Assembly (NCBI GenBank): GCA_017563185.1
Contig: JAFXIL010000173.1
Location: forward strand, 1-37,797
Length of the DNA stretch: 37,797 nucleotides
Origin: Kiritimatiellia bacterium
Lineage (GTDB): Bacteria; Verrucomicrobiota; Kiritimatiellia; RFP12; UBA1067
Direction of reading: 5' to 3'
In this document: positions 29,005 to 34,230 of the stretch, piece after piece
Numbering within the stretch: position 1 is the stretch's first letter
Layout of the letters: every line of letters begins with the position of its first letter
Program-made: the position numbers and the translations under genes
Notes under the pieces: generated by a model
Told to the model about the DNA's origin: nothing
What the model saw: the letters and a program-made list of their open reading frames with translations, nothing else
Database searches by the model: none

Positions 29005-32000
29005 CTAATTCTCAACCTTGATGCGCTTTGGCGCGGACAGGGCATGGATGTCGGGCGCGTACATCGCCTCGACGGCGGGCCCGGGCATCACGAAGTCGCC
29101 TGCCGTCACCACGCGCAGAGGGTAGAGGAAGCGCACGCTCTTTCCGGCGGCAAGATGGAACTTCTTGGAGAACACGAGCATGCGGTCGTCGCGTGCGTCG
29201 CTGCGCATCACCCAGTCGTCGTCGTAGTCCTTGGCCCAGCTGTACAGGCTAGGGTCGACGCCGCCATGCACCGGTTCAAACGCCGCCGGAAAGAGATCCT
29301 GCACCACAAGGTCGCTGAAGGTGCGTGCCATGGGCGCTGTGAGCGTGATCTCGGCCAGCAGCAGGTCGCCGCGCGAGAGCTTCTCCATGCTCGCGGGAAG
29401 GCCCTCCGGCGTAAGAAAGCGCCTAGATATCTGTATCTGGCTCGTCTCGTTGGTGACAATCGTCGCGTCGGGCAGGTCTATCGTGCGCCATGTGAGCCAC
29501 GCGCTGCCTTCGCCGCGGTTCTCCACAGCCACTTCGCCGCCACCGCGTATGGTCTCGTGCCGTCCCACAGCGAGCGCCTTCTCGCCGTCCGCCCCCTTCA
29601 TCACGAGCTTCGGCACGCTGTCCTTCACAGGATGGTGGCGGTAGTATGCGCCAAGCGCCACGAGCGCATGGGCGTTCTCGCCGGTGGTACCCCAGCTAAA
29701 GCGATCCGGAACGCGTGTGGACTCCAGATACTTCACAAGCGGCGCCAGGCGCGCGTCGTCTGGATCGACCTCGAGAAGCGCAAGCATCGCAAAGGCGGCC
29801 TCCTTCACCGAGCCTGGCTGCGTGGCGGCGGCGCGCAGCAGCTCCGCCGCGCGCTCCCTGTCGCCAGAGACGGCGAACGCGCGGGCAAGCCGCGCACGGT
29901 CGAGCACGGCGAGGTTCCGGCGGTCGTCGTAGAGAACGAGCATGCGGTCCTGCGCGGGCTCTCCCGCGAGCGCGAGCGTGTGGCAGGCGTATGCCGAGAC
30001 GGAGCGGGTATTCTCAAGGCTCCATTTCTTCAAGAACTCCATCACACGCTTCTTCGCGGACGGCGCGAGCGCGGCGCCGCCCTTCTCCGCCTCCACGAGG
30101 AAGTGCGCCGCGTAGAGCGACACCTCGCGGTCCCATGGCGCATAGTTGCAGTCGGGCCACATCACGAAGTCTCTCTCGCGTATCATGGATGCCACGCGTT
30201 TCACACCCGCCGCCACGTAGTCGCCGCGCTTCGCAAGCCTGCCATTCTTCCCGTCCACCGCAATGCGGTTGAGGAACCCGCCGGCCGCCACAAGCGGGAA
30301 GATGCGCGACGACGTCTGCTCCAGGCATCCGTGCGGATATTCCGCGAGGAACTCGAGCGCTCCCACAAGCCGGGAAAGCGCGCTAGCACCAGGCGTGAAC
30401 TGCCTCACCGCAGCCTCGGGAACGATGCCCGCCTTGTCCACGGGGAATGCCTTCGCCTCACCGGGATTGAGAATGAGCGTCCCGCTCCGCTCGCGGCTCG
30501 CCACGGCTGGGCGCACCGGCAGCAGGATAGTCTGCTCGTGCTTCTCGCCGCATCCTTCGCTTCTGAAGACGATCCTCGCCTCGCCCGGCGCGCCGACGGC
30601 CCTCGCGCGCACGGTGCGCGTGACGGACGCTCCGTCCGCCAGCTTCTCCACACCCTCTTTCGCGCCTTCGCACGCCACTCCAGAGCTCGCCTCGACTTTC
30701 CACTTCGCCTCGCCCGCCGCACCGCTGCGGTTGGCGAGCGTCACGGTGACGTCGAACGAATCGCCGGGCGCCGCAAAGCGTGGCGCGTCGCTCTGCATCA
30801 CGAGCTTCGGCGTCACCTTCTGGCGCACGTCGCCCGCGCCTGTGGCCTTGGCGGAAAGCGCCACCGCGGCCACTCGAACTTCACCCACGAACTCGGGCAG
30901 CTCGAAAACGGCACGCCCAACTCCGTTCGTGAGGGGCACGGCGGTCTGCCAGAAGGCGATGGTGCGGAAACGCCTGGTGGGAACGGGGCTCACCCTTCCA
31001 AGCATCTCGGCGCCCATGTCGCCACCAGTCTTGAAGCCGCGTGCCTTCGTGGGATCGCCGTCCCACACCGGCAGCAGATTGTCGAAGAGGTCGTAGAGCG
31101 GCAGACCGGCCGTGCGAAGACGCGCGAAGAAGTCCACGGGCTTCAGCGCGTTCCATCCGGTGAGCAGGTGTATGCCTTCGTCCACCACCGTCACCACGGC
31201 CACCATGCCCGTCGCCGCCTGGCCGACCGCCGTCACGTCCGCCGTGAGCGTGCCGCCGCCGTCTTCGCCCACCTTGTAGGCGGTCTTCACCGCCACGGGG
31301 AACTCGTTCTCCCAGCGGCGGACGGCGAGCGCCGTGTAGCCATGGGCGCGCGCGGTCTGGCGGCGGCCGCCGTTCTCGGCGCTCTGCACCACGCTTATCG
31401 CAATGTCCAGGTTCGGAGCCCACGACCCGTCCACCTTGTCGAGCGAGATCTCCTGCGTGGGGCCTTCGAGCTTCAGGACGCGTTTCGAGACCACCCTGTC
31501 GCGCATCGTCGTTAGCAGCGCCCATCCGGCGAACGGCGACTTCACGAGAAGACGCGGCACGTCGCCGGGACGGTACACCTCCTTGTCGAGGGAGAGCGTC
31601 ACCTTGCTAGGATTGGAGAGCGGCGCGCGCACGGAATCGTCGCCGCGGCTTCCAAGCCAGAACGAGCAGCCGAAGCTTGCTCCGCTCGCCTCGTCGGTGA
31701 GCGTGAGCGCGTAGTCGCCGTCCAGCCGGAACGGAATCTCGAGCTCAACGTCGCCGTCCGCCTTCGTCTCGATCTCGGCAACTGGGCTCTTCTGCGGCAT
31801 GCGCACACGTTCGCAGTGCCATGTCGACCAGCCGCGGCCATCCTCCTTGCAGCTGTACACGCTCTCGACGCGGTCGAAGGCCACCTTGAGCCTCCTCGCC
31901 TCGGGAAGGCGCGTTCCATCAGGCCGTACGCACGCGACTTTAGTCTTCGCGAAGCCCTTGTCTGGAATGCGCACATTTCCTCCTATCGTGGTGCCGATGT

Positions 32001-34209
32001 AGAACGGATAGTAGTGCAGAACGCGATTTCCGCGGGCTCTCGCAGGGCGCCCGCCTTCTTCGAACACCGTTCCCTCGCCTATCGCGAGCACTGCGGCCTT
32101 CGGCCTTCCGCTCTCCTCGAGAAGCGGTGCCTTGTAAACGGCGCATCCTTCGTCGTTCAGGGGGAACTTCCAGAGACGGCGGTAGCTGGGCTTGAGGCCG
32201 AGGTCTTCGTTGCCGAAGTGCCATGCCTCCCAACCCTTCGGCTTGAATGGCGAATCCATGAACACCACCGCGCCAGCGCTCGTGAGCCCACGCGCCGGAC
32301 CGCCGTAGAGATGCCCGGCCTTGACGGCGAACGAGAAGTTGGTGGCGTTGTCGCCTGCCGGCTCCACGCTCACACGGATCTGCGGCGGTGCGAACTCCTC
32401 CACGCTCACGGCGCGGCCGCCGTAGATGCGGGCGTTCTTCGCGTTGCCCGGCGCGGCGACGTTGATCTGCCAGCGTCCGCTGGGCAGCTCGGCGGGAACT
32501 GCGAACGAATCGCACCACGCGGCGCCATGGGCGTCAGAGACCACGGTCTTGCGCTGCACCACCTCGCCGTTAGGATCGCGCAGCAGGAACTCTACAGGGA
32601 ACGGCTTCGGGGCCTCGTTCGCGCCGTTGCGGAGTACGGCGTGTACGAACATATGCTCGTTATGGCGATATATGCCGCGCTCTGTCCAGACGAATGCCGT
32701 CACGTCGTTCGCGCGCAGATATCCTTCGCGCGTGCCAGCGCCAAGAGTCTCTTCTATGGTCTGGCGTTCCTGCAGGCAGACGAAGGAAGTGTCCCTGCCG
32801 TCTGCTGTCTTGACGACCACGGCGAAAGGCTCGGCGCGCGAGGAGCAGACGACGTCGCATATGCCCTTCGAATCGGTGCGTCCATTGACGAGGTGGCGGT
32901 TGTTGGAGCCGTAGACGTCAATTACGCAGTTGGTGACTGGCGCGCCGGTGGTGAGGGACGTGGTCCAGGCTATGATGCGTTCGCCTTCGCGGCGCACGGT
33001 GATGCCGATGTCGGTGATGCAAACGAGCTTGTAGCGGTTGGGGTTCCACTTCTCGCCGCGTTTGTCGCTCCACCACCAGCGGTCGTCCTTGCGGTCGCTG
33101 TCGGCCGAACGCACGGCCACGATGAAGACGCCGTTCGAAGCCGCGTCGGGGAGAGTGCGCAGGGCGAACGGGGTGACGCCGTGCTCGTTGACGCGGCCCA
33201 TCGTCTCTACGTCCCATTCCATCAGATTGTCGGCGATGCTCTCCGTGACCTCGGAATCGGCGGAACCGTCGCCGTCTCCCCTGTAGTACACGCCATTGTA
33301 TTTTCCGTTTTCGCGGGCAAGGAGCTGGACGATGTTGGCGGTTGGCACTGCGGCGGCGGCGCAGTGGATCTTCGCCACGTTCACGCTGTCCACGGCGAGC
33401 ATGCGCGCGCCGCCGGGCGGCAGATAGCGCCCCGAATCGACGAACCGCACGCGCGGCGGAGCGTCCTTGCACTGGAGAATCTTCACGAAGTCGCGTTCAA
33501 GGGGTTCCACCTTCACCTCCACTTTGCTGACATTTTCGCGGTCGCAGGCGGATCTCGCCTCGGCGGTTGGTTTTGCGCCGGGCAGCCCGGCTCTCACGCG
33601 CAGAGTGAGATTTGTGCGGAATGCAAAATCGCCCCGCAGTTTCACCCTAGGCTGTTTCCTGTAATTGTCGTTGGAATCATAATCCCAGTCATAGCCATAT
33701 TCGAAAGCCACCCCTCCATTGACAGGTTCCACAGTAATATAATCGCGCAGCACAGACGCATCAGGCTCGTGGCTAAACGTTATCGACATCTCATCATCGC
33801 CAATATATTTCACGTCTTTCACGCAAACATGCTCGATTTTAACGGTTGTCGTCTTTGGGGGACTGTCCCCCTCTCCTTTTTGGGGACTGTCCCCACTGCC
33901 TGGTTTGGCACCTGCACGGGGACTGTCCCCACTGTCTCTACGGGGACTGTCCCCCTTGGCTTTTTCACCTTCTTGAACGGTATGATTTCCTTCCGATTCC
34001 CCCTGCCCTTTCCTGTATTTTCTTTTCGCCGCATCGTTTTTTTCTGCACTTATAATGCCAACTGCCTTGTCCAGCAACGTCTCGCAGCCCTTTAGCTGCC
34101 TGTGCATCCATGTTGCCGAGCCAATGCCGCCAACCGCCGCAAGAACAAGCGCCCCCATGAGGCACCAAATCCCCGCCTTTTTGATTTTTCCGTTCATTTT
34201 CAGTTCCAT
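29005..34209 (-). CDS. alpha-2-macroglobulin family protein with thioester motif
   Basis: A 1734-residue membrane-anchored protease trap of the bacterial A2M (YfhM/MG) class, predicted to face the periplasm or surface. A cytoplasmic basic stretch and one transmembrane helix (about 12-34, AGIWCLMGALVLAAVGGIG) replace the lipobox usual in E. coli-type A2M. A charged linker (about 55-115) with four GDSP motifs follows, then macroglobulin-like domains. The thioester motif GCLEQT has Cys1295 and Gln1298, followed by the alpha/alpha-toroid thioester domain and the C-terminal receptor-like domain (LVVQDLFPA). Start at 34209 has AAAGG six bases upstream; an ATG at 34197 is possible. The usual neighbour pbpC is absent. 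The 5' 600 bases are much richer in A+T than the rest. Stop codon TAG. Confidence 0.92.
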   Translation of the reverse strand: MELKMNGKIKKAGIWCLMGALVLAAVGGIGSATWMHRQLKGCETLLDKAVGIISAEKNDAAKRKYRKGQGESEGNHTVQEGEKAKGDSPRRDSGDSPRAGAKPGSGDSPQKGEGDSPPKTTTVKIEHVCVKDVKYIGDDEMSITFSHEPDASVLRDYITVEPVNGGVAFEYGYDWDYDSNDNYRKQPRVKLRGDFAFRTNLTLRVRAGLPGAKPTAEARSACDRENVSKVEVKVEPLERDFVKILQCKDAPPRVRFVDSGRYLPPGGARMLAVDSVNVAKIHCAAAAVPTANIVQLLARENGKYNGVYYRGDGDGSADSEVTESIADNLMEWDVETMGRVNEHGVTPFALRTLPDAASNGVFIVAVRSADSDRKDDRWWWSDKRGEKWNPNRYKLVCITDIGITVRREGERIIAWTTSLTTGAPVTNCVIDVYGSNNRHLVNGRTDSKGICDVVCSSRAEPFAVVVKTADGRDTSFVCLQERQTIEETLGAGTREGYLRANDVTAFVWTERGIYRHNEHMFVHAVLRNGANEAPKPFPVEFLLRDPNGEVVQRKTVVSDAHGAAWCDSFAVPAELPSGRWQINVAAPGNAKNARIYGGRAVSVEEFAPPQIRVSVEPAGDNATNFSFAVKAGHLYGGPARGLTSAGAVVFMDSPFKPKGWEAWHFGNEDLGLKPSYRRLWKFPLNDEGCAVYKAPLLEESGRPKAAVLAIGEGTVFEEGGRPARARGNRVLHYYPFYIGTTIGGNVRIPDKGFAKTKVACVRPDGTRLPEARRLKVAFDRVESVYSCKEDGRGWSTWHCERVRMPQKSPVAEIETKADGDVELEIPFRLDGDYALTLTDEASGASFGCSFWLGSRGDDSVRAPLSNPSKVTLSLDKEVYRPGDVPRLLVKSPFAGWALLTTMRDRVVSKRVLKLEGPTQEISLDKVDGSWAPNLDIAISVVQSAENGGRRQTARAHGYTALAVRRWENEFPVAVKTAYKVGEDGGGTLTADVTAVGQAATGMVAVVTVVDEGIHLLTGWNALKPVDFFARLRTAGLPLYDLFDNLLPVWDGDPTKARGFKTGGDMGAEMLGRVSPVPTRRFRTIAFWQTAVPLTNGVGRAVFELPEFVGEVRVAAVALSAKATGAGDVRQKVTPKLVMQSDAPRFAAPGDSFDVTVTLANRSGAAGEAKWKVEASSGVACEGAKEGVEKLADGASVTRTVRARAVGAPGEARIVFRSEGCGEKHEQTILLPVRPAVASRERSGTLILNPGEAKAFPVDKAGIVPEAAVRQFTPGASALSRLVGALEFLAEYPHGCLEQTSSRIFPLVAAGGFLNRIAVDGKNGRLAKRGDYVAAGVKRVASMIRERDFVMWPDCNYAPWDREVSLYAAHFLVEAEKGGAALAPSAKKRVMEFLKKWSLENTRSVSAYACHTLALAGEPAQDRMLVLYDDRRNLAVLDRARLARAFAVSGDRERAAELLRAAATQPGSVKEAAFAMLALLEVDPDDARLAPLVKYLESTRVPDRFSWGTTGENAHALVALGAYYRHHPVKDSVPKLVMKGADGEKALAVGRHETIRGGGEVAVENRGEGSAWLTWRTIDLPDATIVTNETSQIQISRRFLTPEGLPASMEKLSRGDLLLAEITLTAPMARTFSDLVVQDLFPAAFEPVHGGVDPSLYSWAKDYDDDWVMRSDARDDRMLVFSKKFHLAAGKSVRFLYPLRVVTAGDFVMPGPAVEAMYAPDIHALSAPKRIKVEN
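33857..33955. repeat. four in-frame palindromes GGGGACTGTCCCC
   Basis: Perfect 13-base palindromes (one central base) stand at 33858-33870, 33882-33894, 33918-33930 and 33942-33954. Distances between copies are 24, 36 and 24 bases, all multiples of 12, so all four keep the same reading frame. Read on the coding minus strand each gives Gly-Asp-Ser-Pro in the linker of the macroglobulin. Copies 1 and 4 extend by one or two further complementary bases. Such palindromes are usually intergenic. Confidence 0.95.
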
Positions 34210-34230
34210 GCTTTGCCTTTTTTGCACAAT

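Follow-up and report, generated by a model that had tools for sequence, protein, structure and literature searches.

The stretch of DNA analysed here, called the window, is 37,797 nucleotides long and comes from the genome of a Kiritimatiellia bacterium. On its minus strand, an open reading frame from 29005 to 34227 encodes an alpha-2-macroglobulin (A2M), as identified from the frame itself, its Pfam domains and comparison with orthologues. The gene likely starts at the ATG at 34209 rather than at the GTG at 34227, judging by the peptide MELKMNG, which is common to the orthologues.

The protein begins with a predicted membrane anchor at about residues 20-41 (34105 to 34170, minus strand), read from the sequence and matched by a helix over residues 3-74 in the AlphaFold model. 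Residues 82-88 (33964 to 33984, minus strand) read HTVQEGE, the apparent remnant of a LysM-like domain; it was recognised by comparison with orthologues, and LysM was assigned by eye, without a profile match. Then follows the linker, residues 89-128 (33844 to 33963, minus strand), which is mostly a palindrome array and is predicted to be disordered. Downstream of this linker, Pfam finds bMG3, MG2, bMG5, bMG6, the bait region, A2M and bMG10.

The AlphaFold model covers residues 1-420 and is weak overall, with a mean pLDDT of 60. It gives pLDDT values below 50 for residues 59-124, and has the first macroglobulin strands from residue 129. The low values fit a flexible linker, as would be expected. 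An earlier sequence-only reading of this DNA had placed such a linker after the membrane anchor and ahead of the first macroglobulin domain, and this placement holds up.

The window A2M is without most of the LysM-like domain that its orthologues keep, and HTVQEGE joins the array in frame. The apparent deletion ends within or beside the palindrome array.

The home-made gene caller set the start of this gene downstream of the linker, which is why the case for translation of the linker rests on orthologue comparison. Over the first 60 codons, third-position differences from orthologues number 20 of 33 and 19 of 29. The A2M frame also stays open across linkers of differing length. This third-position bias, together with the frame kept open among orthologues, supports a translated linker.

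The repeat itself, GGGGACTGTCCCC, is a perfect palindrome of 13 letters. An exact search of the whole window finds four copies, spaced 24, 36 and 24 bases apart. In plus-strand coordinates they lie at 33858 to 33870, 33882 to 33894, 33918 to 33930 and 33942 to 33954. Read on the minus strand, these are the GDSP peptides at residues 120-123, 112-115, 100-103 and 92-95 respectively, so that all four fall within the A2M frame, between residues 92 and 123 of its translation. On the coding strand each copy is GGG GAC AGT CCC, or Gly-Asp-Ser-Pro. The number of copies, their spacings and their common frame are exactly as first described.

Allowing up to two mismatches reveals no further site in the window beyond these four. 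Since each site is counted on both strands in that search, there are 8 matches; shuffled windows have 1.06 expected matches, and none of 100 shuffles reaches 8. If the protein merely needed GDSP, the codon usage of this genome would yield this 13-mer with a probability of 1.6e-4 per copy, and 6e-16 for all four. AGT accounts for 2.2% of the serine codons in the genome, and GGG for 11.5% of the glycine codons. Folded as DNA, the 99-nucleotide array scores -31 kcal/mol versus -15.2 in shuffles (z -6.5), and by this model a strong secondary structure is possible.

The linker in related macroglobulins

The closest A2M orthologues are L072 (92%) and L074 (86%), and both have a LysM-like domain between the membrane anchor and the linker. 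By eye, the domain is also present in six other A2Ms (L079, L083, L086, L103, L104 and L105). More distant A2Ms are mostly palindrome-free at the linker position. The presence in related A2Ms of the LysM-like domain followed by a palindrome-free linker indicates that the linker is older than the repeats.

Copy number differs between the orthologues. The window has four palindromes, L072 has five (three exact and two decayed) and L074 has eight (seven exact and one decayed). The last palindrome in both L072 and L074 has the opposite centre base, which gives GDCP where the window reads GDSP. It had been asked in advance whether orthologues keep GDSP by way of varied codons. They do not: it is the DNA word that is kept, and decayed copies mostly lose the peptide along with it (GDRP, QASP).

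Arrays also occur in the same linker further afield. L084, a more distant A2M homologue, has seven units, five of them exact, with spacings of 21, 21, 21, 30, 21 and 21, and these are read as GTVP. An A2M of another genus, in genome G016, has three GDSP copies there. This makes three lineages and two frames. The simplest reading of these sequences is that the arrays arrived independently in the three lineages; the alternative is a shared origin followed by a change of frame.

The sequence-only reading was right that mobile-type palindromes were inserted into coding sequence, but it had also called them domesticated. There it went too far, given a copy number that varies from four to eight, a peptide that varies (GDSP, GDCP, GDRP, QASP) and even a different frame, GTVP, in the distant homologue. 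On present evidence the claim does not go beyond tolerance.

Abundance of the palindrome and a neighbouring transposase

The window's own genome contains 74 exact palindromes in 3.2 Mb, versus none for a reversed control and about 0.37 expected from base composition. These copies were read through fetched stretches, with genes from the home-made gene caller. Outside genes lie 59 of the 74, and 15 are within them (11 in called genes plus the 4 in A2M); coding sequence makes up about 81% of what was fetched, yet most copies are intergenic. A genome-wide count had been set beforehand as the test that could refute a mobile-type palindrome in coding sequence, and it finds the palindrome abundant elsewhere and mostly intergenic.

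Each locus has spacers of its own, and these recur within the cluster, a pattern that suggests tandem amplification on the spot. Between genes, only 4 of 27 spacings are divisible by 3; arrays in general therefore do not share the in-frame spacing seen in A2M.

Of the 59 relatives and 289 sampled phylum genomes, only members of one bacterial family have high copy numbers. Genomes of other families in the phylum sample have at most 4 copies each, which is roughly what the reversed control gives. Among named relatives, the nearest are metagenome-assembled genomes (MAGs) of Kiritimatiellae from rumen and gut. The assemblies are themselves fragmented MAGs, in which copies may be missing.

A search for a Y1 transposase gene had also been proposed. 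One is present in this genome, on contig C29, with palindromes on both sides. Its protein scores 41.8 bits against PF01797 (cut-off 23) and 71.2 bits against the NCBIfam model REP_Tyr_transpos (NF047646), the latter below the cut-off of 80, with an E-value of 8e-20. Around 31 Y1 loci of the genus there are 26 exact palindromes versus 0.73 expected, nearly all of them around one clade; the other Y1 clades have almost none nearby. As with canonical REPs, a RAYT-like gene is thus flanked by the repeat, for one Y1 clade and in several genomes of the genus. All 8 sampled genomes in which this transposase has a close relative contain at least 8 palindromes; among the remaining genomes, 6 do (Fisher p about 1e-6, uncorrected for relatedness). 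A link between transposase and palindrome is suggested by proximity, and by that alone.

Two contig ends of the same genome, on C71 and C158, match sequence upstream of the transposase in the RAYT element of genome G013. Their outer flanks cease to agree at palindromes. These matches suggest that further copies of the element were lost in assembly. Of the 74 palindromes, 15 are no more than 300 bases from a contig end versus 2.9 expected, where copies within a cluster are not independent.

Contig ends C71, C158, C128 and C149 (L126, L137, L132 and L136) form pairs that share sequence just past the palindrome. The ends of C128 and C149 share a long stretch of another repeat, distinct from the RAYT match of C71 and C158. 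In L041 (451-1704, minus strand), the gene for a RAYT-like transposase itself holds its palindrome in frame, in a decayed form read as QGTVP at about residue 104. In G013 and G011 this GTVP copy in the transposase gene is exact.

Three genomes are rich in palindromes, and no close intact relative of the C29 transposase was found in them: G001 with 32 copies, G016 with 48 and G327, the genome of L084, with 101 (counted with any base at the centre). A search of G327 with the RAYT-like protein of the window's genome gave no match. A search there with the family profile did find RAYT-like loci, and the two that were fetched have no flanking palindromes. One RAYT-like match in G327, L333, has a single in-frame TGA.

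Loops in other proteins and the competing explanations

A palindrome within a gene is not special to A2M. In seven genomes, including that of the window, it is found in frame in about 36 genes, and in all three frames. The six further genomes have 55 exact copies in called genes and 119 outside them. Taking these six together with the better cases from the window's genome, there are 67 copies in 36 genes: GTVP 39 times, GDSP or GDCP 20 times and GQSP or GLSP 8 times. Five of the 36 genes use more than one frame. That the DNA word recurs in varied frames argues against a motif at the protein level.

The hosts include MurC, MtaB, HemW, PurF, phosphoglucomutase and PYNP. In the window's genome, a MurC-MurB protein has in-frame GLSP, GTVP and decayed copies, and an MtaB-like methylthiotransferase has GTVP twice. 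Other in-frame copies there fall in a GDPD-sialidase, in a glycosyltransferase and at the C-terminal ends of two proteins. A single HemW loop uses three frames, its copies being read in turn as GDSP, GQSP, GTVP and GDSP. The most decorated gene seen is a HemW-like one in L268 (2940-3923, minus strand), which has seven exact palindromes and uses three frames.

In genus-wide alignments of MurC and MtaB, a small set of indel-rich loops repeatedly holds palindromes, intact or decayed, along with other repeats. These loops sit between well conserved blocks and differ between species. Some single MurC copies replace loop residues with no net change in length, and a clean pair of empty and filled sites for a single 13-bp insertion was not found. 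The MurC loops of G004 and G003 (L221, L222) and the MtaB loop of G007 (L236) are expanded by unrelated repeats (STSQLLN..., AEEPVTGGPRP...), so the palindrome is not the only repeat by which loops grow. In G014, the MurC reading frame of L323 (2163-4187, minus strand) runs into a match to glycosyltransferase family 25, where the window's genome has a MurB domain.

Some in-gene copies could be chance. The sole copy in the hydrazine-synthase-alpha-like domain of L143 looks like a chance native motif and was accepted as such. Left out of the good gene cases were L118, an integrase-like frame that is probably broken, and L123, at a contig edge.

With arms of GGGG and CCCC, the palindrome has no stop in any of its six frames, and each frame reads Gly-x-x-Pro (GDSP, GDCP, GQSP, GLSP, GTVP). 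This is a simple sequence reason for tolerance. It would also explain why copies build up in loops, in linkers between domains and at C-termini.

The four palindromes of the window are, with good confidence, copies of a family-specific REP/TIR-like repeat whose cognate enzyme is a RAYT-type HUH/Y1 transposase, and they have been amplified locally and tolerated in loops. The core TGGGGACAGTCCCCA would be cognate to the one transposase clade, which may have seeded the repeat. It would then have arrived in the loop that follows the LysM-like domain, or the membrane anchor, and precedes the first macroglobulin domain. There it would have multiplied locally in steps of about 24 bases, perhaps by slippage or recombination, and the lengths that kept the frame would have survived. 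The linker is presumably near neutral, and Gly-x-x-Pro would be a turn-forming, soluble peptide in every frame. In support of this are the abundance of the repeat, its restriction to one family, its place on the flanks of one clade in the genus, its reading in several frames, the recurrent loops and the change in copy number between orthologues.

Other explanations need to be weighed against this. GDSP might be an ordinary protein repeat, selected as a linker motif and with the palindrome incidental: all window copies and most orthologue copies do read GDSP in frame, at spacings that are multiples of 12. With a codon probability of 6e-16, the same word 74 times in the genome, an A2M homologue that reads GTVP in this linker and a HemW loop that uses three frames, this is highly improbable. 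Equally hard to credit is an operator or nucleoid-protein site with the in-gene copies as side effects; a perfect dyad that is mainly intergenic would suit it, but not irregularly spaced tandem arrays of up to seven, nor copies in coding loops and around transposase genes, nor an occurrence in only some species of the family.

More serious is the idea that the palindromes arrived as mobile DNA and that the array is now selected as a spacer between A2M and the membrane. Three close orthologues keep the array and its frame, the linker is predicted to be disordered, and it is occupied in three lineages. This remains on balance unlikely, as copy number, peptide and frame all vary, decayed copies (GDRP, QASP) are tolerated, many A2Ms are palindrome-free there and the same DNA occurs in unrelated housekeeping proteins. 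It is also conceivable that no transposase is involved, and that the repeat arises by replication slippage or hairpin templating and spreads by recombination and gene conversion. The locus-specific spacers repeated within clusters, a sign of local tandem amplification, and the palindrome-rich genomes without a close transposase speak for it. We hold this to be quite improbable, since it leaves unexplained the dispersal to many unrelated sites, the copies clustered to either side of a single transposase clade and the element ends at the palindrome.

The main result is that one mobile palindrome makes loops in many proteins, and does so in all frames. A bolder claim, which we regard as doubtful, is that this frame-proof, Y1-tied palindrome is a family-wide source of linkers, by which Gly-x-x-Pro loops of essential and surface proteins are seeded, expanded and contracted fast enough for selection to act, with the A2M linker remade independently in three lineages. 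Either way there is a natural series over many species, in which the same mobile palindrome enters the same loops of essential proteins with differences in copy number and frame. This makes the question posed by Rickettsia palindromic elements, of how selfish DNA turns into working protein segments, directly testable.

Comparison with known repeats

REPs within open reading frames have been described before, most of them in Opitutus terrae and Rickettsia conorii, where loops and linkers were suggested (Di Nocera and others, PMC3733652). The same work covers TIR-associated tyrosine transposases (TIRYT, in TIRtrons), whose repeats share GGGGWSAS. TIRYT mostly correspond to subclass 2.1, and tnpA-REP genes of subclass 2.4 hold in-frame REP insertions (PMC6006769). 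Rickettsia palindromic elements were reported by Ogata et al. 2000 and 2002, and are reviewed in PMC10969869. The exact text of the palindrome is absent from the papers searched, and a literature search on Kiritimatiellae and palindromes found nothing relevant.

As in a TIRtron, the Y1 HUH transposase gene of the Kiritimatiellae system lies between repeats that have a G-rich motif in common: GGGGACAG, on both sides of the gene, fits GGGGWSAS exactly. Some published TIR families are likewise self-complementary, multi-copy and clustered. The published repeats are however described as long inverted repeats near the gene, whereas this one is a perfect palindrome of 13-15 bp that is often in genes. 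No long terminal inverted repeats were found at the transposase; the longest exact inverted match is 13-17 bp, the palindrome and a few bases.

With canonical REPs it shares being a short palindrome in high copy that is mainly extragenic. The intragenic REPs of Opitutus terrae are also short RAYT-linked palindromes, in frame in housekeeping genes, often in dimers or groups, and proposed as linkers or loops. Those have GTAG or CGTC feet, and the Kiritimatiellae palindrome has neither: its flanks show no conserved GTAG, GTGG or CGTC tetranucleotide, and GTAG or CTAC lies within 14 bases in 8 of the 74 own-genome copies. A further difference is that here arrays recur in the same loops across several species and in different frames. 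Without a GTAG or CGTC foot and without long inverted repeats, the palindrome is assigned neither to canonical REPs nor, as proven, to TIRtrons, although by analogy it appears to work like the repeats of both.

The in-frame, palindrome-derived GTVP inside a transposase of its own family recalls REPtron subclass 2.4 (PMC6006769), although the motifs DNHLH, WQ and YIAYNP, read by eye, are not a clean match. The likeness in principle to Rickettsia palindromic elements, proposed from the sequence, holds up: mobile-like palindromic DNA is in frame in unrelated genes, whose product is apparently not lost. Those elements are about 100-150 bp long and encode a conserved family peptide, whereas here a 13-bp core with unconserved flanks is read in all frames. 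Also, CGTC-type repeats, including rickettsial ones, were found to have no adjacent transposase, unlike the Kiritimatiellae palindrome.

The closest likenesses of the palindrome are the GGGGWSAS repeats that accompany TIR-associated tyrosine transposases and the REPs found within genes of Opitutus and Rickettsia. The Rickettsia and Opitutus cases are already known; the novelty lies in the repeat described here and in the way it recurs at the same loops.
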